In this document: positions 2 to 60,879 of the stretch, one piece after another
How positions within the stretch are numbered: position 1 is the stretch's first letter
How the letters are laid out: each line of letters opens with the position of its first letter
Origin: Deltaproteobacteria bacterium
GTDB taxonomy: Bacteria; Myxococcota_A; Polyangia; Polyangiales; Ga0077539
Assembly: GCA_030694465.1 (NCBI GenBank)
Contig: JAUXYJ010000076.1
Span: forward strand, 62,001 to 126,000
Direction: 5' to 3'
Length of the DNA stretch: 64,000 nt
The notes under the pieces: generated by a model
The model's database searches: none
The model's input: the letters and a program-made list of their open reading frames with translations, nothing else
Told to the model about the DNA's origin: nothing
Made by a program: the position numbers and the translations under genes

Positions 2-1414
2 TGTGTCAACACCAACCGCGGCGCTGCACAGACCCTCAACGCGACCAACCTCGCGCCCGGAACCTACTGGGTCTCGTTCTCGCGTGAGCCCGACATGGCA
101 GGGACCGTCCCCGCCCGCATCAACGTCACCACGACCATCACCGCGGCGCCTCCGCGCATGGCCGGCGACGTGTGCCCAGGCGTCACCGTCCCGATCAACG
201 GTGGAGACACGGCGATCAACGCGAGCATGTTTGGACGCACCGGCAACGAAATCCCCACCACGGGTTGCGCAAACATCATGCCCAACCTGGACTTTGTCTT
301 CTCGTACACGATCGCGACGACGAGCGATGTGACCATTGATGTGCTGGCTCCCGGCGGCTCGGTTGCCCGCATGAACCACACGCTGCAGACCAGCTGTGGC
401 GACACCATGAGCACCTCGGGGACCTGCAGCTCGGTCAACACCAACTCGTACCGCCGCACGGTCAACCGCCAAGCGCCCGGGACCTACTACGTGATCACCC
501 AGGCCGCGGTCTCGACCATGACCCCGCCCACGTTCTTGGCCAACGTCCGCACCGTGCCATCGGCCGCCGCGGGCCCCGCAGACATGTGCCCAGGCATCCC
601 GTTGTCTGCCGGTGTCACCGCCTCGGCGGGAGTCACGACCCTCGCGCAAGACCAGGCCTTTGGCTGCTTTCCTGAGAGCACCGCCGACGGCAACTTCTCG
701 TTTAACGCGCCCGCTGGGCAGGACGTGCTCGTCGAGGCCAACTCGACCGCGCGCACCGCCCTCGAGCTTCAGTCCCCCTGCCGCATGAACGCGATGTCCT
801 GCACCGCAACGGGCGTCGCAGGCCGCTCGTGGCGCCGCTACTCTGGCCTCACCGCGGGCCAGTCCTACAGCGTGCACGCTGGCTCCAACGCCGGCGCGGG
901 CAACCTCGACGTGGTGTTTCGCAACATCCCGCCGCTCACCCCCGTCGCGATCACTGGCAACGAAGCCTGCGCGAGCGCACGCTTGATCCCCACCGCGGGT
1001 GGCGTCTTCACCGGCAACACCGCCATGATGGCAGCAAACACCACTGCTCCCTTCAACGGCGCTGGCTCGTGCATGGGCTGCAACACCTTCACCGGTCGTG
1101 ACGCAGTCTACCGCTTGGATCTCACCGCGCGCACCCGCGTGCTCGCGACGCTCCGCAGCGGCACCACCGGCTATGACCCGGTCATGTACGTCCGTACGGG
1201 CATGACCTGCCAAGACAACCTCGGCGGCGGCGGCGGCGGCGGCAGCTCGTTGCTCTGCGCCGACGATTACTACGGCCAAGACGGCGCGTTTGATCGCACG
1301 CTCGATGCAGGCACCTACTGGATCTTCGTCGACACCTGCGTGGCAGGCGGCGGCGGTGGCGGCGCGCCCACGGGTGGCGCGTACAACCTCGAAGTGATCA
1401 CCCTCGCTCCCTGA
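2..1414 (+). CDS. Secreted hypothetical protein (partial, open at left edge) with three repeated beta-rich PPC-like modules
   Basis: Frame 2 is open from the window edge to TGA at 1412-1414; repeated module starts such as 'MAGDVCPGVTVPINGG', 'ADMCPGIPLSAG', 'TGNEACASARLIPTAGG'; ends 'GTYWIFVDTC...YNLEVITLAP'. Confidence 0.75.
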   Translation, partial: CVNTNRGAAQTLNATNLAPGTYWVSFSREPDMAGTVPARINVTTTITAAPPRMAGDVCPGVTVPINGGDTAINASMFGRTGNEIPTTGCANIMPNLDFVFSYTIATTSDVTIDVLAPGGSVARMNHTLQTSCGDTMSTSGTCSSVNTNSYRRTVNRQAPGTYYVITQAAVSTMTPPTFLANVRTVPSAAAGPADMCPGIPLSAGVTASAGVTTLAQDQAFGCFPESTADGNFSFNAPAGQDVLVEANSTARTALELQSPCRMNAMSCTATGVAGRSWRRYSGLTAGQSYSVHAGSNAGAGNLDVVFRNIPPLTPVAITGNEACASARLIPTAGGVFTGNTAMMAANTTAPFNGAGSCMGCNTFTGRDAVYRLDLTARTRVLATLRSGTTGYDPVMYVRTGMTCQDNLGGGGGGGSSLLCADDYYGQDGAFDRTLDAGTYWIFVDTCVAGGGGGGAPTGGAYNLEVITLAP

Positions 1415-1541
1415 GCGAGCGCGATGTGGGGGCACGCAGCATGGGGATGCTGAGCTAAGCGCGATGCATCACGGGTGGCTCAGCATGGGGATGCTGGCTA
1501 AGCGCGATGCATCACGGGTGGCTCACCATGGGGATGCTGGC
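1413..1541. repeat. About 3 tandem units of 43-44 bp, each with a CAGCAT-GGGG-ATGCTG hairpin
   Basis: Unit 'taagcgcgatgcatcacgggtggctcagcatggggatgctggc' at 1456 and 1499, divergent copy from about 1413; hairpins at 1437-1452, 1481-1496 and 1524-1539 (last with one arm mismatch). Confidence 0.85.
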
Positions 1542-1547
1542 TGCGGG

Positions 1548-3068
1548 CTAAAACCGTGGATCGCCGACGGTGACCCAGTAGCCCGTGGTCATGCCAGGAG
1601 CGTGCAAGGGCGTCACGTCACAGCGTGTGCGCCCCGTGGCGTCCACGCGGGTGCGCACGTCCGCGACCCTCCACATGGCGCCCACATCGCTGTTGCCCGT
1701 ACGGGTGGCGGCAAAGCTTGGCAGCTCGTCGGGGGCGGCCCCCAACGTCGCCTCGCGGCGGCCCGAGCAGTACACATTGACCACAGGGCGTGCGCGCGGA
1801 CCGCTGAAGTTTTGCACCATGATCCTGAAGGTCTCGTTGTCGCGTGGCTGATCGATGTTGATGTTCTCGGGGACGCCGGTGCCCTCGGAGAGGTTGTTGT
1901 CGATGTCTAGCCGTGGGTTTGCGCAGAAGCCCAGGGCGCGCCACTGGGAGCCTTGGGGGCCATTTTCGCACTCGCGCAGGGGGCTGTTGGCATAGCCCCA
2001 ATTGGCGCGGACATACCCCGCGCCTCGGATGGTCGCCTCGCAGTTGTGCCACCCGCACGAGTCCACCGTGGGCAAGAAGACATCGCTGGGTGGCGGGTAC
2101 CAGCTCGTCACGCTCATGGGCCTGTGAATAAACAGGTCTAAGTCACTGACCTCGCTCTCGGGGTAGCACATCTCGATGCGCAGCCCAGGGCCCTCGACGT
2201 GGACCACCCACTGGCACGTCCGGGTGAGCCCACCCGCGGTGATCACCGTGAGAGTCACCGTGTAATCTCCGCTCAATTGCGGGACAAACGTCGCATTGGC
2301 GCTCGTCGGGTTGCGCAGCTCAAAGCTCCGCAAGCGGGTCGAGAGCTGATCGCAGGGCCCGCCCTCAATGCGCCACTGCACCGAGCGCGGAGTCGCTGCG
2401 AAAAAGTCGGCCAATCGCAAGGGATACTCTGCAAATGGGCGGCCCACGGGCACGCGAGGGTCGTCGGGCTCGGGGCACAAGATCTCGCAATCGCGGTCGG
2501 CCGAGCAGCCGTTGCAGAGGTTGTCTACGCCGTTGCACTCGGCGGGGCGCGGAGAGATCCCGCCCAAGCACGCGGTCCAAGCGCGCGAGCCAAGACAGAG
2601 CTGCGTCCCGTCTTGGCAGATCCCGATGTTGCGGCGGCCAGGCGGTCCGGCAAAGCAGCGCTGCACCATCCCGGGCTCACAGTCGCAGCCCTCGTCACTG
2701 CGCCCGTTGCAGTTGTCATCAAGCCCGTTGCCACAGATCTCAACCGGATTGCAGCGGTCTTGCACGGGCACGCACACCTCGGCCGCGTCCACCACGTCCG
2801 CAACGTCGGACACATCGGCCGCGTCTGCGACATCGCTGGCGTCCATCACGTCCATCACGTCCGTGACATCGGGCTCGTCTGTCACGTCGGGCTCGTCTGT
2901 CACATCGGGCTCGTCGCGCGTGTCTTGCGCGAGGTCATCGATCGCGTCGCGTTGTGCGTCAGGGACGCGCACATCGGGGACGCGCAGCGCAGAGCGTGCA
3001 CCACAGTGGAGCGTCGCGGTCACCGAGAGCAGCAAGCAAAACGAGGGCAACAACGCACGAGGAGCCAT
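1548..3068 (-). CDS. Lipoprotein with Asp-rich linker and MopE-type putative metal-binding motif
   Basis: Start MAPRALLPSFCLLL..TATLHCGA (lipobox); DEPDVTDEPDVTDEPDVTD repeats; 'CGNGLDDNCNGRSDEGCDCEPG' motif. Confidence 0.8.
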   Translation of the reverse strand: MAPRALLPSFCLLLSVTATLHCGARSALRVPDVRVPDAQRDAIDDLAQDTRDEPDVTDEPDVTDEPDVTDVMDVMDASDVADAADVSDVADVVDAAEVCVPVQDRCNPVEICGNGLDDNCNGRSDEGCDCEPGMVQRCFAGPPGRRNIGICQDGTQLCLGSRAWTACLGGISPRPAECNGVDNLCNGCSADRDCEILCPEPDDPRVPVGRPFAEYPLRLADFFAATPRSVQWRIEGGPCDQLSTRLRSFELRNPTSANATFVPQLSGDYTVTLTVITAGGLTRTCQWVVHVEGPGLRIEMCYPESEVSDLDLFIHRPMSVTSWYPPPSDVFLPTVDSCGWHNCEATIRGAGYVRANWGYANSPLRECENGPQGSQWRALGFCANPRLDIDNNLSEGTGVPENINIDQPRDNETFRIMVQNFSGPRARPVVNVYCSGRREATLGAAPDELPSFAATRTGNSDVGAMWRVADVRTRVDATGRTRCDVTPLHAPGMTTGYWVTVGDPRF

Positions 3069-3118: not shown

Positions 3119-4315
3119 TCAGGTGCGCGATCGGTGAGGTCGACTGAGAACCGTGATCCGTAGCGGAAACTCCGGCGTCCCGCGCAACGTCCGTTGGTAC
3201 GCGCCAGTGCGATAATTGCTCGCCCCCGCGTGGGCCACATGCTCTTCGAACTGGCCTCCCTCGAAGAGCACCTCCGTCTCTAAATCGACAGACTCCACCG
3301 CGAGCGCAGACGCTTCGCCGAGCTCTTCGGGCTTGCGAAAGCTCTTGGCGATCCCGAGCTCGGCCAGCGAGACGTTCTCGTGGCGAGGCGCATCCGGGGA
3401 CCGTTCACAGAGCACTTCGCCGCAGAGCATCTCGACCTCGATGAGGTCACCATCGCTGGTTTGTGCTGAAAAATGGGCCACAAGAGCGTCTCGCACACGC
3501 GCCCCTAGCGTGCAGCCCTCGACAAGAACCAGCGGCGCTGTCGTCTGCAGAATGTGGGCGAACTCTGCGGGGACCGAGCCGCTGACCAGCGTAGCTTTGA
3601 TCGCGCGCTCAGGGGTTGTAGGGATCACCAAGGGCAACGCGACCGGGCGCAAACCCTCATGTCTCGGGCGGCTCTCCCAGCCGCGGTTGTGATCCCCGCG
3701 AAGATAAAACACCGGCGAAAACACCTGCTGAATCATCCGCAGAGTCCTTCGCTCGATGCGCCCGCGCAAGACCCGCCGTGGGTCGCCGGGCACCACGCTC
3801 GCGAAGAGATACAAGAAGCCCGCGAAGAGAATGAGCCACAGCGAGGCCATCAACGCGCAGCCCGCGGTGGCCAACAAGAGCGCGATCATGGCGAGCCCAA
3901 GCGCCAGGTAACCCAGCGCAGCGCCCAGCAAAATCCCAAGGCCCACCATCAAGGCGCTCATCGCGAGCGAGCTCTGTGGGCCCACAATGAACGGAGCAAA
4001 CACGGCCCCCAGGATGGCGCCCGCCATCGCGCACGCGTGGCCCACCATCGCGAGCTTGTTCTCGCGCTTGTGCAACCCTGCGCGCAGTTGGTTGGCCCGC
4101 GCGACGCGGCGCGCCAAGCGCACCAAGGGGCCCTGTGCATCGGGCCTCCGCAGGTCAAGGAGCAGCCGATGACAGCGCGGGCAGTGGCCCGAGACGTACG
4201 ATCGTTCGCGGCAATAAAAGCAGGCGAAATGAGCTCCAACAGCAAACCGACGCAAGCCGTGTGCGCCCTCGGGGCGCGGCGACGGGGCTGTCTGCGGAGG
4301 CTGGGTCAGGCTCAT
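3119..4315 (-). CDS. Hypothetical membrane protein with N-terminal CxxC..CxxC motif
   Basis: ATG at 4315 (MSLTQPPQTAPSPRPEG..); 'CFYCRERSYVSGHCPRCHR'; several hydrophobic segments. Confidence 0.7.
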   Translation of the reverse strand: MSLTQPPQTAPSPRPEGAHGLRRFAVGAHFACFYCRERSYVSGHCPRCHRLLLDLRRPDAQGPLVRLARRVARANQLRAGLHKRENKLAMVGHACAMAGAILGAVFAPFIVGPQSSLAMSALMVGLGILLGAALGYLALGLAMIALLLATAGCALMASLWLILFAGFLYLFASVVPGDPRRVLRGRIERRTLRMIQQVFSPVFYLRGDHNRGWESRPRHEGLRPVALPLVIPTTPERAIKATLVSGSVPAEFAHILQTTAPLVLVEGCTLGARVRDALVAHFSAQTSDGDLIEVEMLCGEVLCERSPDAPRHENVSLAELGIAKSFRKPEELGEASALAVESVDLETEVLFEGGQFEEHVAHAGASNYRTGAYQRTLRGTPEFPLRITVLSRPHRSRT

Positions 4316-4414
4316 ACAAGGCACTCGGTTCGAACGCGCTGTGGGGAGATCGTCGCGATGCCCACAGACCATAGCGCCCCGGGCGCACTACGCATCGCAA
4401 GAACACGCGGGACC

Positions 4415-5833
4415 ATGCGAACCTCAGACGATATGACGGCTCGACGCGTTGATCATCGCGCGGTGCGCGCACAGCACCCAGAGGGTGTGTTGCGTGCGGT
4501 GTACGACTATGCCGCGCTGGACTCGGCGCAGACGTGTGGCATTCGCTACGACGGGCGGGCGCTCGACGCGCGCGTGGGCGAGCCGTTGGCGCTCTCGCTC
4601 TTGGCCAACGGGATCGACACGCTCTCGCGCAGCGTGAAGTTTCACCGGCCGCGTGGGCCGATGTGTCTGCGAGGCAACTGTGAGGGCTGTCTCACACGCG
4701 TGGACGACGACCCGAACACGATGGCGTGCGTCGCGAGAGCGCACGATGGTCGGGAAATTCGCTCACAGAACGCATTTCCGAGCGCAGAGCTTGATGTGCT
4801 GCGGATCACGGACTGGTTCTTTCCGAAGAGCTTCGACCATCACCACCTGATGGTGCGGTATGGCCCCGCGATCAACCAAGTGATGCAGTCGTTTGCGCGC
4901 AAAATGGCAGGGCTCGGGACGCTCCCGACGCGCGCGTCCGAGCCCATGGCTCCGCTCGCGATGGACTGTGATGTGCTTGTGGTGGGTCTGGGTCCCGCGG
5001 GGCTCGCGCTCGCGGCGCAGTGTGCCCAAGCGGGGCTCAAGGTAGTTGCCGTGGACGAAGAGCCCGATGTCGGGGGATTTCTGCGAGATTCTCTGCAGTG
5101 GCACACCCATGAGGGCGCACGCGTGTGCGCTCCGGCGTGGTGCGATCTGCAGCTGGCGAAGCTGCGCGCGTTGGGCGTCAGCGTGCGGCTGGGCGCCGCG
5201 GCGTGCGCCACGTTTGACGACGGGACCTTGGTGATCACCGGCGAGCGAGCGCTGTGGGTGCGAGCCCGCGCGCGCGTGTTTGCCAACGGCTCACACGAGA
5301 GCGTCGGAAACTTCGAGAACAACGATCTCCCGGGGATTTATACAGAGCGCGCGGTCGCTCGTGCGTTGCGCCAGGGCGTGCGTGTAGGCGCGACCGTGTT
5401 GCTCACGGGCGGGTCCGACGAGACCGATGCGCTCGCGCTCGCCCTCTCGCACACAGACGCCACCGTGCACCGCGTACAGCCCGGCGAGACCCTGCGTGGA
5501 GCCAAAGGGATGGGTGACGTCTCGGGCGCAGTGCTTGTGGGTCCAAAGGGCGAGCGCACGGTGAGCTGTGACGCGATCGGCGCGGAGAATGTGCGGACGC
5601 CAGCGTTTGAGTTGGCAGGGCAAGCTGGCGTTGAGCCTCGGGCGAGCCTCACGCGGCGATGCTTCGTCGCGCACTCGCACGAGGCAGGGCGCACCGAGCG
5701 GCGCGATGTGTTTGTCGTGGGCAGCGTGCGAAGCGAAGGCGACACGCGCGAGCCAGACTGGGACGCGACCGTGAGCGCGTCGGTGATCGCCCTGTGCAAA
5801 GAGACCGCAGCGCAGACTGGAGCCTCGCGATGA
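4415..5833 (+). CDS. FAD-dependent oxidoreductase fused to an N-terminal [2Fe-2S] domain (HcnA+HcnB / sarcosine-oxidase-alpha-like)
   Basis: 'CLRGNCEGC...C' ferredoxin cluster; 'DCDVLVVGLGPAGLALAAQCAQAGLKVVAVDEEPDVGG' dinucleotide-binding motif; start uncertain (4358, 4415 or 4433). Confidence 0.8.
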   Translation: MRTSDDMTARRVDHRAVRAQHPEGVLRAVYDYAALDSAQTCGIRYDGRALDARVGEPLALSLLANGIDTLSRSVKFHRPRGPMCLRGNCEGCLTRVDDDPNTMACVARAHDGREIRSQNAFPSAELDVLRITDWFFPKSFDHHHLMVRYGPAINQVMQSFARKMAGLGTLPTRASEPMAPLAMDCDVLVVGLGPAGLALAAQCAQAGLKVVAVDEEPDVGGFLRDSLQWHTHEGARVCAPAWCDLQLAKLRALGVSVRLGAAACATFDDGTLVITGERALWVRARARVFANGSHESVGNFENNDLPGIYTERAVARALRQGVRVGATVLLTGGSDETDALALALSHTDATVHRVQPGETLRGAKGMGDVSGAVLVGPKGERTVSCDAIGAENVRTPAFELAGQAGVEPRASLTRRCFVAHSHEAGRTERRDVFVVGSVRSEGDTREPDWDATVSASVIALCKETAAQTGASR

Positions 5834-6177
5834 GCGGCAAGACGTTGTTGTGTCGGTGCGAAGACGTGACCCTCGATGAGGTCGAACATGCGATCGCGAA
5901 GGGACACACGGACATCGAATCGGTCAAGCGATTTACAGGGTTTGCTACGGGATGGTGCCAAGGCAAGCAGTGCCTGATCGCGTGTGCGCGCGTGATCGAG
6001 GACAAGACCGGCGCGTTTCCGTTGGCGCCCATTACGCCCAGACCCCCAGTGCACCCGATGCCGTTGGGCATGCTCGCGGGGCTCGCCAACGTGGTGAGCA
6101 CCGAGCGCGTGACGCACCATGAGCGCGGGGCCGTGCGCAAGCCCAACGTGGGCAACGGCGAGGGAGAATCCCAGTGA
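5830..6177 (+). CDS. Stand-alone BFD-like [2Fe-2S] protein
   Basis: MSGKTLLCRCEDVTLDEVEHAI..GFATGWCQGKQC; overlaps the flanking genes by 4 bp on each side. Confidence 0.8.
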   Translation: MSGKTLLCRCEDVTLDEVEHAIAKGHTDIESVKRFTGFATGWCQGKQCLIACARVIEDKTGAFPLAPITPRPPVHPMPLGMLAGLANVVSTERVTHHERGAVRKPNVGNGEGESQ

Positions 6178-7433
6178 AAAAGCACTACCGCGTGGTGATC
6201 ATTGGTGCCGGGATCATGGGGCTCTCGGCTGCCTATCACCTGGCTCGGCGAGGCATCACCGATGTGCTGGTGATCGACCGAGGGTATCTCTGCGGAGGCG
6301 CGTCGGGGCGCAACGGCGGGGGCGTGAGGGCGCAGTTTTCGAGCGAGACCAACATCCGGCTCATGCGCGAATCGATCGAGATTTGCCGCGATTTTGCCAC
6401 CGAGATGAAGATCAACGTGTGGTTTCGACAGGGCGGGTATCTCTTTTTGACGCGCAGCAAAGCGCAGGCGGCGCAGCTCGAAGCGAGCGCTGGATTGCAG
6501 AAGCGCTGTGGGCTCGCGACGCGGCTTCTCTCGGGCCGCGAGGTCCAGAGCATCGTGCCCGAAATTGACACGCAAGGGGTCGAGCTCGCGAGCTTTAACC
6601 CAGACGACGGCGTGGTGTTTCCCTGGCCATTCTTGTGGGGCTATGCGCAGGCGGCCGAGGCTCTTGGCGTAGAGCTCGCGACGTTTACCGAGGTCGAGGG
6701 CTTCGCGACCGATGGCAAGCGCATCACGTCGCTCGCCCTCGCGCGCACAGCGCACGACGCCCTCGCAGCGCACGATCGCGCAGAGCGCACGAGCGCACAC
6801 GGCCGCGGACCGCAGCTCGCTCCCGAATCGCACACCGAGCGCCCTGTGCAAGAGCGCTTCTCGGTGAGCGCCGAGACGGTGCTCTGTTGCGCGGGCGCAT
6901 GGAGCCCTAACATCGCGAAAATGTTAGATATTTCGCTTCCCAATGTGCCGCACCGCCACGAGATTTGCTCGACCGAACCCTTAAAGCCGTGGCTCGGACC
7001 GCTCGTCGCGGACCTGAGCAATGGGCTCTATTTTTCGCAGAGCGCGCGGGGCGAGATCGTGGGCGGGGTCTCGGTCGAGCCGGTGCCCCACGGGATCAAC
7101 CAGCGCTCGAGCGTTCAGTTTTTGGCGACGTATGCGCAGGCGTTGGTGCGCACGGTGCCCTCGATGGCCAGCGTCAAGGTCCTGCGCCAGTGGGCGGGCT
7201 GCTATGACCTCACGCCCGATCAGAGCCCCATCGTGGGCCGCGTCGATGGCTGCGAGAACTTTGTCCTCGCGTGTGGGTTTATGGGCCACGGCTTTATGAT
7301 GGCCCCCGTGATGGGCCGCCATTTGGCTGAGCATATCGCCACCGAAGAGACCTCAGCGCTCTTTGCCCAATGGAACCTCCGGCGCTTTGCCGAAGGCAAT
7401 CTCTTAAAGAGCGAATCGATGATCATCGGGTAG
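6174..7433 (+). CDS. DAO-family FAD-dependent amino acid/amine oxidase (HcnC / SoxB-like)
   Basis: 'YRVVIIGAGIMGLSAAYHLARRG'; C-terminal 'AGCYDLTPDQSPIVGRVDGCENFVLACGFMGHGFMMAPVMGR'. Confidence 0.85.
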   Translation: MKKHYRVVIIGAGIMGLSAAYHLARRGITDVLVIDRGYLCGGASGRNGGGVRAQFSSETNIRLMRESIEICRDFATEMKINVWFRQGGYLFLTRSKAQAAQLEASAGLQKRCGLATRLLSGREVQSIVPEIDTQGVELASFNPDDGVVFPWPFLWGYAQAAEALGVELATFTEVEGFATDGKRITSLALARTAHDALAAHDRAERTSAHGRGPQLAPESHTERPVQERFSVSAETVLCCAGAWSPNIAKMLDISLPNVPHRHEICSTEPLKPWLGPLVADLSNGLYFSQSARGEIVGGVSVEPVPHGINQRSSVQFLATYAQALVRTVPSMASVKVLRQWAGCYDLTPDQSPIVGRVDGCENFVLACGFMGHGFMMAPVMGRHLAEHIATEETSALFAQWNLRRFAEGNLLKSESMIIG

Positions 7434-23566: not shown

Positions 23567-24358
23567 CTACTGCGGCATAAACGACCAGCGCAATCGCAGC
23601 ACGCCCGAGCCGTTGTCACGCATCGGCACGCGAAAGTCTCGATCGCACTGAACCTGGACCTCTGGGTCGTAGTAGCTCATGACCTGCAGCTTCACGACGC
23701 GGTCATCACGCAGACGCACGAGGTACACCTCGCCCGTCATGCGCAAACAGCCCACAAACGACCAGAAGCCCTGCATCACCGTCCCCGGAACGCCCAGCGT
23801 CCCGTCGTCCACCAGCCGGCAACTCGGGGTCGTAAAGTATCCCTCGTAGCGATAGCTTGTCCCAGGCAAAACCCTGGTCAAATCATCGTAGCGTACCCCC
23901 TCGGGCCCCTCTGTCGCCTCGACGCACGAGGGCCCCGACACGCCGCTGTTAAGCCGGATCACAAGACGCCTAAACGCGATGTCCCAATCGAGCGACCGCA
24001 GCGAGGCCTCGTCGTCGAGCATCACCTGCACGAGCCCGCGGTCGGTAAACCGCGCGTACACAAAGCTCTCGCTGGGGGTCTGTCCGCCCGCCCGCGCGTC
24101 GACCACGGTGAGCTCTCCTTCGGTCACGATGCTCCCGCTGCTGGGTTCGATCAAGAGCGGCAATTGCTCAATCGATTCGCTCTGACAGCGCGGCTCGTGA
24201 GGCTCACACCGCTGGGGCCGAGAGGCCTCGGCTGCGTCCGGTGAGACCTGATCCATCGACGACCCGGCGACGTCGCCGGATGCGTCCATCGTGGGCGTCA
24301 CCGGACCACACGCACAGAGCCAAAGCGCACAAACAGTCCACCGAGAGAGAGCATTCAC
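23567..24358 (-). CDS. Hypothetical lipoprotein with Asp-rich linker
   Basis: GTG start VNALSRWTVCALWLCACGP (lipobox), then TMDASGDVAGSSMDQVSPDAAEAS. Confidence 0.65.
   Translation of the reverse strand: MNALSRWTVCALWLCACGPVTPTMDASGDVAGSSMDQVSPDAAEASRPQRCEPHEPRCQSESIEQLPLLIEPSSGSIVTEGELTVVDARAGGQTPSESFVYARFTDRGLVQVMLDDEASLRSLDWDIAFRRLVIRLNSGVSGPSCVEATEGPEGVRYDDLTRVLPGTSYRYEGYFTTPSCRLVDDGTLGVPGTVMQGFWSFVGCLRMTGEVYLVRLRDDRVVKLQVMSYYDPEVQVQCDRDFRVPMRDNGSGVLRLRWSFMPQ
24264..24279. repeat. Dispersed palindrome copy E: CCGGCGACGTCGCCGG, inside CDS
   Basis: Encodes 'SGDVAG' in the post-lipobox linker of 23567..24358. Confidence 0.9.
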
Positions 24359-24406
24359 TGGGATGGGCCGCACACAACCGCACCCACCTCTGCGCGTCAA
24401 CCTCTC

Positions 24407-26375: not shown

Positions 26376-26491
26376 GTCTCAATGCGTCTTGAAATCGAGT
26401 ATCAACATCGCTACAACCAGTGCGTGTGTTGGGAGCGGCGACTGAACCCGCGCGACACGCTCTTCGTTGCACCCTTTGCGGAGGTCACGCT

Positions 26492-26719
26492 GTGTTTGTT
26501 TGCATCTGCCGCGTCGTCACCGAGTCACGAATTCGCAGCGCGATCTCATCGGGCGCGAGCACGGTGGACGACATCGAACGCGCCTGCGGTGCTGGTGGAG
26601 ACTGTGGCTCTTGCCGGGACGAAATCCAGGCGATGATCGACGGAGAGAGCCCCGTAGCCGAGGGATGTGCGGGCTGCCCACGGGCGGGACAACCGCGGGG
26701 ATTGTCACGCTCTGCGTGA
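26492..26719 (+). CDS. bfd: Bacterioferritin-associated ferredoxin (BFD-like [2Fe-2S])
   Basis: GTG start; 'VCICRVVTESRIRSAISSGASTVDDIERACGAGGDCGSC'. Confidence 0.85.
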   Translation: MFVCICRVVTESRIRSAISSGASTVDDIERACGAGGDCGSCRDEIQAMIDGESPVAEGCAGCPRAGQPRGLSRSA

Positions 26720-26750: not shown

Positions 26751-27227
26751 ATGAAGGGTTCTCCGCAAGTCATCGAGGCGCTCAACGCGGTGCTCACCGT
26801 GCAGCTCACCGCGATCAATCAGACTTTTTTGGCTGCGAAAGTGCACGAGCATCGCGGCTTTACCAAGCTCGGTCGCGCTGCCTACAAGCACTCGATCCAG
26901 GTCATGAAGCACGCCGAACCCGTGATCGCGCGCGTGCTGTTTCTCGACGGCCTCCCCAACCTCCAGCGCATGGGAAAGATCGCCGCAGCCGAAGACTCTA
27001 CCTCGCAAATCGCTGCAGATTGTACGCTCCAGAGTGATCTCTGTGCGCGGCTCGAGGCCCTCGCCCACGTCGCGCTCGAGGCCAACGACCACGCCAGCGC
27101 GGAGCTGGCCGAGTCTCTGTTGGTGAGCGCACAGCAGACCCTCTTGGCGATCGAGACCCAGCTCCGCGAGCTACAGACCTTGGGCGAAAATATCTTTCTC
27201 TCGCAGCAATTGCACGACGCGGGCTGA
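26751..27227 (+). CDS. bfr: Bacterioferritin with degenerate ferroxidase centre
   Basis: 158 aa; MKGSPQVIEALN..LTAINQTF..MKHAEPVIARVLFLDGLPNLQRMGK; aligns without gaps to recalled E. coli Bfr. Confidence 0.9.
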   Translation: MKGSPQVIEALNAVLTVQLTAINQTFLAAKVHEHRGFTKLGRAAYKHSIQVMKHAEPVIARVLFLDGLPNLQRMGKIAAAEDSTSQIAADCTLQSDLCARLEALAHVALEANDHASAELAESLLVSAQQTLLAIETQLRELQTLGENIFLSQQLHDAG

Positions 27228-27273: not shown

Positions 27274-27894
27274 GTGTCTTTTGAGCTCTTCGCGCGCATT
27301 TGTGTCGGCGCTCCGCTGCGTCCCGACGCTGCCATTGCCCTTCACGCTGCATTTATCCAATCGCTTCAGCTCGCACCCGATTGCGACCCCGAGACGCTCT
27401 TCGAAGCGCTGCGGTTTGAAGCCCCCAAACACAAGAAGCACGAACCCGATCGCCTGCGCTATCTCCGCGCCCTCGAAGCCTTCGTCGACCAAGAACACAA
27501 CATCGACATGGCCCTCGGCGGCGTGTCAGAGCTTGGCGTGTTTGACCCGAAGAAAAACTACATCTTCGTCGGCGTCGTGGTCTCGGAGTTTCAGTGCCCG
27601 CAGGCAGACCTGGGCCGCGGGGCAGCGCTCCCTGACAAGCCCCAGTGGCTCAAGTGGGGCGACCTGGGCTCGACCAGTGATTTGGGCAAGACGTTTCCGC
27701 TCGACCGCGAAGTCGAGAAGGGCCTCGATCATGCGCGCCGCTCGTACCAACGCGCGGTCAAAGACATCAACAAAGACGCCCACTTGCGCGTCCGCCCGAT
27801 GACCTTGTCCAAGCAACACGACCCCGACTGGGCGATGTGCCGCTGGCTGGTCTCGCAAGATCACCCGTCGGTGCAGCCTCGCGGCCGCACCTAG
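27274..27894 (+). CDS. Hypothetical protein
   Basis: Coherent 206-aa ORF MSFELFARICVGAPLRPDAAIALH.., possible GTG start. Confidence 0.65.
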   Translation: MSFELFARICVGAPLRPDAAIALHAAFIQSLQLAPDCDPETLFEALRFEAPKHKKHEPDRLRYLRALEAFVDQEHNIDMALGGVSELGVFDPKKNYIFVGVVVSEFQCPQADLGRGAALPDKPQWLKWGDLGSTSDLGKTFPLDREVEKGLDHARRSYQRAVKDINKDAHLRVRPMTLSKQHDPDWAMCRWLVSQDHPSVQPRGRT

Positions 27895-27960: not shown

Positions 27961-29805
27961 CTAGAGCGCCCTCACGAACTGGGTGAGCTCGTTGATGGTC
28001 TGGTCATCCGTGTGAAAATTGCCTAGGTGAATGTCTTCGACACCCTCACGGCGCGGCACCATGTTGCGCAGCAAATCGCTGCCATAGTGCTTCATAAGAT
28101 CCTCGAGCCGCACAAAGGTCCCGCCGTGCCCCCAGGGCCCTGTGCGAGCGACTCCGCGCAGCCCCGGCGTGTGAATCATCCCTCGCTGCAGCGGCACTGC
28201 GGTGAGCCCATCCAGGTGCGCACGCGCGCCAACGGGGTCGTCACTGAACATCCCACCGGCGTTAAAGAGGCTGCCCATTACCTGCGCGATCGCGTCGTAG
28301 CGGCCGACATCGGCCATGCCATCCGCGCGCCCCGTGGGGATCGTGATGTTGTGAAAACTGTCGTCGGTCATCATGGGGCCGTGATGGCACTGGATGCACC
28401 CAGTGGAGAAAAAGTGATGCATCCCGACCTGCTGAGCCGCCGTGAGCGCGGTCCGGTCTCCCATCACAAAGCGATCGAACGCGCTGGGCGCAAACCGCAG
28501 GGTGCGCTCGTACGCTTCGAGGGATTTTCCTAGGTTTGCGTACACACGGTGGATGGCGATCTGGTCCGCAGGGGCCATGCCATCAAACGCCGCGTCGCCT
28601 GGCTTGCCTTGCAACGGAAACCGAACGTTGTCCGCGAGCGCAGGCATCGCACCAAACACCGCTTCGTACTCGGTGCGGTATCGGTCGTAGAGCACATGCG
28701 CTGCTTGCAACCGCGTGCCCTCCATCTCAATGGGGTTCTCGATGGGGCCGATCGCTTGGGACCACGCCGAGTCCGCGCGCCCGTCCCAAAAGAGCCACTG
28801 GGTGTAGCCCGCGAAGCGCACCGTGGGCGTGTTGCGCCCCCCTCGGAGCCCCCGGACACCCTGTCCCGTTGCCCTTCCGTCTGTAAAATCTCTGGCTGGA
28901 TCGTGACAGCTCGCGCACGACACGCCCCCTGACGAGAGCGCGGTGTCACGAAACAACCGCTCTCCCATCGCAGCCGCGCGAGGATCGTCCGCATAGTGAT
29001 TGCCCAGCGAGGGCGGCGGCGCAGGGATCCGCGCCATGGCCCGCACCATGTCCATCTGGTCTTCGGCCAGCTCGTGCTCGCCCAACGGCATGGACCGCGG
29101 CATCGGTTGCCCGTCCACAATCGCGATCGCTCGGGCGAGGTTCTCGTCTACCTCGTGAAGATTGGGCCCGGTCAACACGCGCACCGCGCGCATCGTGCGT
29201 GTGTCTACGACCAAAATCACAGGCAATTGCCTGATCCCGAGATAGAGCGTGCGAAACAAATACTCGGGCTCGAGCACCACACGGTGGGTCAACGGCTGCG
29301 GATAACGTGCGCGCCACGAGGCCAAATCCCGAGCGTTTGCGGGCAGATTCTCTTGCCCAAGGACAAGCAAATCGAGCACCTCGGCGCGGTCTCCAAGCGC
29401 TCGCACCGCGCGCGCCGTGTTCTCGGCGTGCCATCGCGAGGGCCCCGACCACGACGCCATCGCGCGGATGACCAGCAGCTTCGAGCGCTGCGCACAGGGA
29501 TTAAAATACTGGGCCAATTGCACGGGAACCGCGCTCCCGTCCGAGAGCGACAGGTTGGGCAAGATCGCGTCGTCAAAGACCTCGTAGGGCCCCGGCGGAT
29601 ACGCCACCGTGGGCTGCCCATTGGCACCACAGAAGGGCGAGCGACCGCTGTCCACGGTGGAGGTCTCGGTCGGGATGACAACCGCGTCACCCTGCGGCTC
29701 GCTGTCCATGCTCGCGTCTGTGGGCGTCGGCGCAGGAGGCGAACAACGCAGCGTCAGCACCAAGAGCGCGCCTCCCAATGAGCCTAGAATCCGTCGTTGT
29801 TTCAT
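27961..29805 (-). CDS. Di-haem cytochrome c peroxidase/MauG-like lipoprotein with N-terminal thioredoxin-fold domain
   Basis: Two CxxCH motifs (CASCH, CIQCH); 'GGRNTPTVRFAGYTQWLFWDGRADS'; N-terminal 'LLVIRAMASWSGPSRWHAEN' TlpA-like. Confidence 0.88.
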   Translation of the reverse strand: MKQRRILGSLGGALLVLTLRCSPPAPTPTDASMDSEPQGDAVVIPTETSTVDSGRSPFCGANGQPTVAYPPGPYEVFDDAILPNLSLSDGSAVPVQLAQYFNPCAQRSKLLVIRAMASWSGPSRWHAENTARAVRALGDRAEVLDLLVLGQENLPANARDLASWRARYPQPLTHRVVLEPEYLFRTLYLGIRQLPVILVVDTRTMRAVRVLTGPNLHEVDENLARAIAIVDGQPMPRSMPLGEHELAEDQMDMVRAMARIPAPPPSLGNHYADDPRAAAMGERLFRDTALSSGGVSCASCHDPARDFTDGRATGQGVRGLRGGRNTPTVRFAGYTQWLFWDGRADSAWSQAIGPIENPIEMEGTRLQAAHVLYDRYRTEYEAVFGAMPALADNVRFPLQGKPGDAAFDGMAPADQIAIHRVYANLGKSLEAYERTLRFAPSAFDRFVMGDRTALTAAQQVGMHHFFSTGCIQCHHGPMMTDDSFHNITIPTGRADGMADVGRYDAIAQVMGSLFNAGGMFSDDPVGARAHLDGLTAVPLQRGMIHTPGLRGVARTGPWGHGGTFVRLEDLMKHYGSDLLRNMVPRREGVEDIHLGNFHTDDQTINELTQFVRAL

Positions 29806-58518: not shown

Positions 58519-60815
58519 CCGCCACAACTCCCTTGGCGACACTCGATTCCGTCCATACACGGAGCAACGTCCCCGGTGCAGCACGCTTGCTGCGGCAGCC
58601 CACAGGATCGGCACACGTTGACTGCGCGATCACAGTCGCCCTGCAGTCGGTCGCAGCGGCTGCCTGCACAACACTGTTGCCCTGGTGCGCCACAGCGTCT
58701 GCAGGTGAAGTCGCTGTCGCAAGTGCTCCCGTCATTGCAGGTGGTAAGACCGCAACATCGCTGTCCCTCCCTCCCGCAAGCGAAGCACGTCATGCTTGTG
58801 CGAAGACACTCTAGATTCGCTGCACAAACACCCCCAGGACAGCAGGTCTGTCCAGGAGCGTTGCCGCAGGGTTCGCAGGTGTTTGCCGGGCCGCAGACGA
58901 GCTGCGAACCACATCGTCGCCCAGGACAACACGGCCCGCCTTGCGTGCCACAGGGTCGCTGACAGGTGCCCGCGATGCAGTCAAACCCAACCTGACATGT
59001 GTCGTTTGCGCAACATGCCTGATTTGCACCGCCGCATGGCCTGCAGCGCCCGTTGACGCAAGCCCCACCTGCGCTGCAGACGTTGCCTTCACAGCACGCT
59101 TCGCCACGCGCGGGGTCGCCACAGCTCGTGCAGGTCCCTCGGCCGGGTCCGGTACAGGTCGAGAAGCCAGTGCAGCTTCGCTGGGCACAACAAGTTGCAC
59201 CCAAAACACCGCACAAAAAGCAGCGATTTCCGTCTGGAGCCGGTGCGCAAAACCCGTTGGTCTGGCACGTGCTGTTTGCGCAACAACGCTCTCCTGCGGT
59301 GCGAGGACTGCTTGCAGGGGCGCCACATGGCTCGCACACCCCCACACCACCACCCGCGCAGACGTTGCCCGCGACACATGCTCGCCCGTCACAACACGGC
59401 GCTCCGGCGACGCCACAAGGCCCACATCGATTCGAAGCGCCGCAAAGAAGCCCTGGAATGCATCGAACCGCCAACGGACCAGCACAGCAAGGGTCGCCCG
59501 CTTGTCGGCCACAGGGATGACAATAGCTTGCTTGCGACAACACCTCTTGGCGACACTCACTCAACGGTGGACACAGCCCAAGAGTGCAGGGGCGATGATC
59601 GATGCACCGTCTGCCGCTGCTGCCATTGCCGGTTGGAATCAAAGCACACACTGCCGTTTGCCCTAGGGCATTCGCTTGATATCCACGATTGACGGGTGGT
59701 TGGCAGCAGTCGTCGCTGATCGCACACGGCACGTTAAAGTCCCGGCAACATCGCGGAACCAGCGCAGGGTTTCGGCCCACACAGGTGTCCATGGGATCGA
59801 TGCAAGGAGAGGTTCCATCGGTGTTGCGGACGGTGCTCTCAAGCACGCCTGGGCCCACCGGAATCACCACGCCGGGCCCTGGTCCCAAACCCACACGCGT
59901 AGCAGTCGGCAAGGTCTCAAAGGACGCCTGCGTGGGGCAGACCTCACCATGCCCCGCCAATCGCACACACTCGCGACTCAGGACATCGGGCGCGGACGCA
60001 TCAGACGCCTGGAGTCCGACACCACGACACTGGTAGGCATAACGTTCGCCCGATGTGGGATCCGGCTGACAGGCTCCAAGACCACCATCCAAGAGCTGCA
60101 ATTGTGGACCGCAAGAGCGTCGACAGAGCCCCTCGCGGCAAGTCAGTCCAGGCCCACAAGGGCTGCAGATTTTCACTCTAGGCGTTGGCGAGAGAGCATC
60201 GATCCAGTTGCCATCACAGCCTGAGCCTTCCTGACTCGGCGCCGCGCAGATCCCGGGCGCGTTGGCGACCACGTTGCTTGGCCTAGCACCACACGCCGAG
60301 GGTGGAAGCGTTCCCCCGATGGGCGTGCCCACTGCACGGCAAAAGCTCAAGGTCGGACACGCGTTGGCGCCGGTCCCAAGCCGAGCCGTTGGGTCGCATC
60401 CGTTGATGGCTGCCACTGCAGAGCGACAACGTCCCACCCCCCGAAATGCCGGATTGTTGGGATCTACCTGCGAAGGATCACAACGCAGTCCCTCGCTGCA
60501 CACACCGATCGCAGCCATACCCGCCTGAGCAAGGCCATCGCATTCGTCAATGCGACAAGGCTGATTGAGCGTCGCGGTTCGAACGCATGGACCGTTGCAG
60601 ACGCGCTGTGTGCCCGCACCACACGCAGCTACCCAATTCCGTCCTGGAGTCTGACGATCGTACGCACACCCTCCAAACAACGGAATGACGACCCACATCA
60701 CAAAAATCGAGAAAAATTGCAGCGCGAATGCTTCACGCTTGAACGCTTGAACGCTTGAACGCTTGAACCCTGCCCATTGCCCACCGCCTTTCGAAAGAGA
60801 AAACGATGCGATCAC
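58515..60815 (-). CDS. Giant Cys-rich repeat lipoprotein (about 10 C..CG..G..CC....C modules)
   Basis: Repeats such as 'CGGANQACCANDTCQVGFDCIAGTCQRPCGTQGGPCCPGRRC'; N-terminal 'FVMWVVIPLFGGCAYD' lipobox. Start uncertain. Confidence 0.8.
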   Translation of the reverse strand: MIASFSLSKGGGQWAGFKRSSVQAFKREAFALQFFSIFVMWVVIPLFGGCAYDRQTPGRNWVAACGAGTQRVCNGPCVRTATLNQPCRIDECDGLAQAGMAAIGVCSEGLRCDPSQVDPNNPAFRGVGRCRSAVAAINGCDPTARLGTGANACPTLSFCRAVGTPIGGTLPPSACGARPSNVVANAPGICAAPSQEGSGCDGNWIDALSPTPRVKICSPCGPGLTCREGLCRRSCGPQLQLLDGGLGACQPDPTSGERYAYQCRGVGLQASDASAPDVLSRECVRLAGHGEVCPTQASFETLPTATRVGLGPGPGVVIPVGPGVLESTVRNTDGTSPCIDPMDTCVGRNPALVPRCCRDFNVPCAISDDCCQPPVNRGYQANALGQTAVCALIPTGNGSSGRRCIDHRPCTLGLCPPLSECRQEVLSQASYCHPCGRQAGDPCCAGPLAVRCIPGLLCGASNRCGPCGVAGAPCCDGRACVAGNVCAGGGVGVCEPCGAPASSPRTAGERCCANSTCQTNGFCAPAPDGNRCFLCGVLGATCCAQRSCTGFSTCTGPGRGTCTSCGDPARGEACCEGNVCSAGGACVNGRCRPCGGANQACCANDTCQVGFDCIAGTCQRPCGTQGGPCCPGRRCGSQLVCGPANTCEPCGNAPGQTCCPGGVCAANLECLRTSMTCFACGREGQRCCGLTTCNDGSTCDSDFTCRRCGAPGQQCCAGSRCDRLQGDCDRAVNVCRSCGLPQQACCTGDVAPCMDGIECRQGSCGG
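60736..60767. repeat. 8-bp tandem repeat (cgcttgaa) x4
   Basis: cgcttgaacgcttgaacgcttgaacgcttgaa inside the predicted 5' coding end of 58515..60815. Confidence 0.95.
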
Positions 60816-60847
60816 AGCATCACGAAACTGTCAATCGTCCCCCGTTT

Positions 60848-60879
60848 GGCCCGCACCCGGCGACGTCGCTGGGTTACAC
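60848..60879. repeat. Dispersed palindrome copy I in 32-bp extended form (core 60857-60872)
   Basis: Identical to 57577-57608; touches the stop of the HisF-like fragment. Confidence 0.92.

Follow-up and report, generated by a model that had tools for sequence, protein, structure and literature searches.

A degraded haem-type bacterioferritin and a haem-free ferroxidase-type partner as a candidate two-subunit bacterioferritin in the Polyangiales

Introduction

In M. gryphiswaldense two bacterioferritin (Bfr) subunits, Bfr1 (no Met52, intact ferroxidase centre) and Bfr2 (Met52, degraded centre), assemble into one 24-mer, and the single subunits are nearly inactive (PMC6529640). Shewanella oneidensis SoBfr12 (PDB 9IIG) likewise stores iron only when both of its subunits are present: the haem-free subunit oxidises iron and the haem-bearing one releases it; dispersed gene pairs of such hetero-bacterioferritins, with bfd near one of the two genes, have also been described (PMC12120770). 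Acinetobacter baumannii forms a Bfr/Ftn hetero-oligomer whose haem subunit retains only three of the six ligands and is regarded as inactive (PMC13136788). In the mixed shell of P. aeruginosa, binding of Bfd is confined to the dimers that bear haem. Vertebrate ferritin, too, combines catalytic and non-catalytic subunits (i.e., H and L chains) in a mixed shell.

Here we describe a bacterioferritin gene in a 64,000-nucleotide stretch of DNA from a member of the Polyangiales (henceforth the window) together with a second gene on the same contig, and refer to their products as subunits A and B.

Results

Translation of the open reading frame at window positions 26751-27227 (plus strand) gives the 158-aa subunit A, which MAFFT aligned without gaps to E. 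coli K-12 Bfr (reference sequence taken from NC_000913). Compared with this reference, five of the six di-iron ligands are gone: on the plus strand, Glu is replaced by Gln at codon 18 (26802-26804), Val at codon 51 (26901-26903), Gln at codon 94 (27030-27032) and Ala at codon 127 (27129-27131), and His by Thr at codon 130 (27138-27140). The ligand His54 (26910-26912, plus strand; the sister genus described below has Glu, Arg or Ser here) and the axial haem ligand Met52 (26904-26906, plus strand) are retained, and the inner iron site carries H46K and D50Q. In a homo-bacterioferritin, one and the same subunit carries Met52 and the full set of six ligands; A has Met52 and a single ligand. Its score against the homo-bacterioferritin equivalog model TIGR00754 (125.3 bits) lies just under the curated cut-off of 125.55, with 127.9 bits for subunit B and 215.8 for the canonical Bfr of a sister genus.

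An earlier note on this DNA had reported the same gap-free alignment and the same residues (Q18, V51, Q94, A127, T130, H54 and M52), and our alignment reproduces every one of them. It had also named functional ligands at shifted positions as a finding that would refute it. In a phmmer search of the PDB, residues 1-154 or more of A match many Bfr structures end to end (one matched entry, 9BTS, is labelled Bfr + Ftn), so with a gap-free alignment shifted functional ligands are ruled out. An AlphaFold2 model of A, built on a 4-row alignment, had a mean pLDDT of 62.9, too poor for structural comparison.

A Pfam Ferritin search of the whole 7.2-Mb assembly returned exactly two genes, A and B. With the genome at 94% completeness, a third Bfr may have escaped the assembly; three further genomes also show no third Bfr. 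Subunit B (154 aa; contig C95, positions 60409-60873, minus strand) is encoded just outside the window, 27.9 kb from A and on the opposite strand, and is the second ferritin-like protein that the note had suggested looking for, albeit with five of the six ligands rather than a full set: E18, E51, H54, E94 and H130 are retained, and position 127 is Thr (E127T). Position 52 is Phe (M52F) and the haem pocket is absent. At the residues associated with assembly, A retains some that are typical of homo-bacterioferritins (K30, Y45, E56 and R61), and B has no dimer salt-bridge residues (A30, R56). Directly downstream of B, on the minus strand, lies an open frame for a fusion of acetate kinase with a PduL-type phosphotransacylase (L082:13564-15372; PF00871 + PF06130), which adjoins B in all four species carrying the pair. 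We also considered encapsulin-based iron storage and rejected it, as no encapsulin was found in ten genomes of the family (this genome and nine relatives).

Orthologues of both subunits occur in three species of a second genus of the same family (G004, G006 and G009), and both loci are syntenic between the two genera. A and B co-occur in every genome with an A (4/4); the other nine family genomes have one Bfr. Searching 184 genomes of the order with an A-type profile gave about 300 bits for the four A genes and at most 162 for everything else, a gap that is partly by construction since the profile was built from those four genes. Scanning 85,462 GTDB species with A-type peptides matched only the three sister-genus genomes, which are metagenome-assembled genomes titled Myxococcales or Deltaproteobacteria. 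The A reading frames are intact in all four species at 61-63% identity between the genera, and all A genes share E18Q, E94Q and the loss of E51 and H130, so that the conserved inactive clade anticipated in the note does exist. The single ligand kept by A differs, however, being H54 in the window copy and E127 in the sister genus. Pairwise dN/dS values (0.15-0.44 for A, 0.08-0.45 for B and 0.03-0.34 for canonical Bfr) indicate purifying selection on the A genes. Given that all nine sampled single-Bfr members of the family keep all six ferroxidase ligands and all four A genes lose five, chance ligand loss in A appears unlikely.

The losses in A and B are reciprocal. Specifically, when the six ferroxidase positions are scored over four species, A keeps 4 of 24 cells versus 20 of 24 in B; at nine positions that we take, in line with Bfr structures in general, to form the haem pocket, A keeps 32 of 36 versus 10 of 36 in B. 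Each of the four A genes has 8 of 9 pocket residues while lacking 5 of 6 ligands. The Bfd-docking site on Bfr (L68 and P69-Q72; PMC13136788) is preserved in A, where it reads LPNLQ, and changed in B, which has PDGR. Judged from these residues, A has retained Met52, a haem pocket and the greater part of the face on which Bfd docks, and B is its mirror image.

The stop codon of bfd, encoding the bacterioferritin-associated [2Fe-2S] ferredoxin (26492-26719, plus strand), lies 31 bp before the ATG of A. That a bfd-like gene precedes bfr at this distance had already been noted; the identification is now borne out by a Pfam Fer2_BFD match of 50.4 bits and by the cysteine spacing, the CxC-X31-CxxC motif being intact. 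Translation of bfd probably starts at the GTG at 26492 (MFVCIC..., with GGAGG just upstream) and not at 26420. The other A-type loci of the family and its canonical bfr loci show the same bfd-bfr gene order, the gap being 11-68 bp for A and 77-175 bp for the single bfr of the canonical genera. No bfd was found near B. We weighed the genome's other Fer2_BFD match (window 5659-6177) as a possible bfd for B and dismissed it, since the protein carries a sarcosine-oxidase A3 domain (54.9 bits) and is encoded within a flavin oxidoreductase operon. That operon (window 3554-7433) encodes a Fer2_4/flavin oxidoreductase, the BFD/sarcosine-oxidase A3 protein and a DAO-type oxidase, and resembles a multi-subunit amino-acid or opine dehydrogenase, in which the BFD domain is distinct from Bfd.

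The neighbourhood of A is syntenic in both genera and includes bfd, a 206-aa protein, a MauG-like peroxidase, a FIST protein and HmuY-like proteins. The 206-aa protein (window 27274-27894), encoded just 3' of A, has no Pfam or NCBIfam match and is 61-63% conserved in all four species. The MauG-like di-haem peroxidase (window 27961-29805) and an HmuY-like protein of a haem-binding family (window 23567-24400) flank the bfd-bfr cassette with conserved synteny, giving the surroundings of the haem subunit gene a haem theme.

In a maximum-likelihood tree, A and B fall among the homo-bacterioferritins of the order, and the classical haem-free subunits (SoBfr1, 9h1u chain M and PaFtnA) form a clade of their own (98.6/99). 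Approximately unbiased (AU) tests were run in IQ-TREE on a set reduced to 45 rows. Holding B with the canonical Bfr of the family was rejected (p=0.014), and A and B as one clade was not rejected (p=0.29). Holding B with the classical haem-free clade was disfavoured at a borderline p=0.031; a looser run gave p=0.54 and was uninformative, as its free search missed better trees. The one-residue TExDH insertion that precedes ligand 127 in the classical haem-free clade is absent from B in all four species. Because the tree has long branches, its groups were named after seeing the data and the looser run did not reject the alternative, an origin of the A/B pair independent of the classical haem-free clade is favoured by these sequences but unproven.

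Other bacterioferritins of the order vary in different ways. Many keep M52 and most ligands and have Gly, Ala or Ser in place of ligand His130 (EEEGIDW and similar); several of these also have Asp for His54, and most belong to one clade (loci L012, L013, L014, L016, L017, L018, L022, L024, L028, L029, L031-L034, L042-L044, L046, L071 and L073-L076). Three other genomes of the order (G021, G057 and G080) have pairs that include a classical haem-free subunit with R52 (L050:343-843, minus strand, with 1087-1554, plus strand; L069 with L070; L071 with L072). The haem-type partner is degraded in G021 and G057 (e.g., N51, A54, H127 and T130), and inactive haem subunits therefore seem to have arisen several times.

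Discussion

We consider it probable, at roughly 85%, that A is the haem (iron-release) subunit of a two-subunit, 24-mer bacterioferritin and B its haem-free ferroxidase partner; the co-assembly of A and B, and their activities, are what we infer from the comparisons above. Since haem needs Met52 from both sides, A would form A-A dimers that hold the haem between two Met52 residues and sit beside B-B dimers in one shell. Fe2+ would be oxidised at the B-B dimers, and Bfd would dock on A-A and pass electrons via the haem, reducing and releasing the stored iron. The pair shows the features of hetero-bacterioferritins, i.e., a Met52-bearing subunit whose ferroxidase centre is degraded (A), a second without Met52 and with a ferroxidase centre (B, with Thr for E127), and a bfd gene near one member of the pair. 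The mixed-shell, electron-exit role that the earlier note proposed for A thus gains a reciprocal partner, a conserved pair and published precedents, but the partner site is imperfect, as E127T is fixed in all four species and the ferroxidase activity of B must be assumed. In SoBfr1, mutating Glu128 (the equivalent of E127) did not lower iron staining (PMC12120770), so that E127T need not kill B. Two further points weigh against a mixed shell: the A and B genes are unlinked, and no operon implies matched expression; and B, which has no salt-bridge residues at 30 and 56, is only predicted to assemble.

The unlinked genes would also fit an alternative in which A and B build two separate homomeric cages, A serving as a haem/electron or haem-storage shell and B as an ordinary haem-free ferritin with Bfd-independent release. 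A retains the assembly residues K30, Y45, E56 and R61, and the haem subunit of M. gryphiswaldense assembled alone (PMC6529640). However, the missing salt bridge of B has a parallel in the poorly self-assembling M. gryphiswaldense Bfr1, which is also altered at assembly residues including 45, 56 and 60 (PMC6529640), and Shewanella requires both subunits (PMC12120770). A shell without a ferroxidase site would, moreover, store little iron, yet A keeps its Bfd cassette. We regard separate cages as unlikely.

It is more improbable still that A is a second ferroxidase with a slow or altered metal site made of H54 and other residues. A precedent is SoBfr2, a haem subunit whose site is partly degraded and in which E18A still lowered iron storage (PMC12120770), and H54 is kept in the window copy; but in the three sister species position 54 holds Glu, Arg or Ser, and the window copy has no carboxylate ligand left. 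Least probable of all is that A is a decaying copy en route to loss, with B alone at work: most of its ferroxidase ligands are gone and the one kept differs by genus (H54 or E127), but pseudogene decay is rejected by reading frames that are unbroken in all four species (61-63% identity across the two genera) and by pairwise dN/dS of 0.15-0.44, and a haem pocket and Bfd face that are invariant or nearly so and a conserved synteny with bfd also speak against it.

The two loci bear on how the split arose. Since the single bfr genes and A both follow bfd and B has none, we infer that A sits at the ancestral locus and that B probably arose as the dispersed copy. The fuller scenario, in which a homo-bacterioferritin of this one family of Myxococcota-related bacteria was split by dispersed duplication, independently of the classical hetero-bacterioferritins, and yielded a five-ligand catalytic subunit with Glu127 fixed as Thr, is tentative, and we would put it at a little less than an even chance. 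The pair would extend hetero-bacterioferritins to another lineage, apparently by a convergent split of Bfr into oxidising and releasing subunits. The point of this split can be located among the genera of a single family, its halves show reciprocal loss, and the fixed E127T in the catalytic half provides a natural test of which di-iron ligands the site can do without.

The division of labour itself is already known in other bacteria; the apparently separate origin and the five-ligand catalytic subunit are mildly new. Vertebrate H/L ferritin is alike in mixing catalytic and non-catalytic subunits but has no haem and no Bfd, and divides the release function in an unrelated way. The A. baumannii hetero-oligomer shares an inactive haem subunit beside ferritin homodimers that oxidise iron; here, however, degradation of the haem subunit has gone further, and B resembles Bfr rather than FtnA. 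SoBfr12 likewise divides the work between a haem-free oxidising and a haem-binding releasing subunit, but SoBfr2 keeps E18, H54 and E127, and SoBfr1 is a TExDH-bearing member of the classical haem-free clade, whereas B has no such insertion and stands apart from that clade in the maximum-likelihood tree. M. gryphiswaldense Bfr1/Bfr2 is alike in that the ferroxidase subunit is without Met52 and the Met52 subunit has a degraded centre, with E18Q as one of several changes. Only 11 nt separate the two adjacent genes in that species, whereas here they are 27.9 kb apart on opposite strands, five ligands are gone from the haem subunit and E127T is present in the catalytic one.
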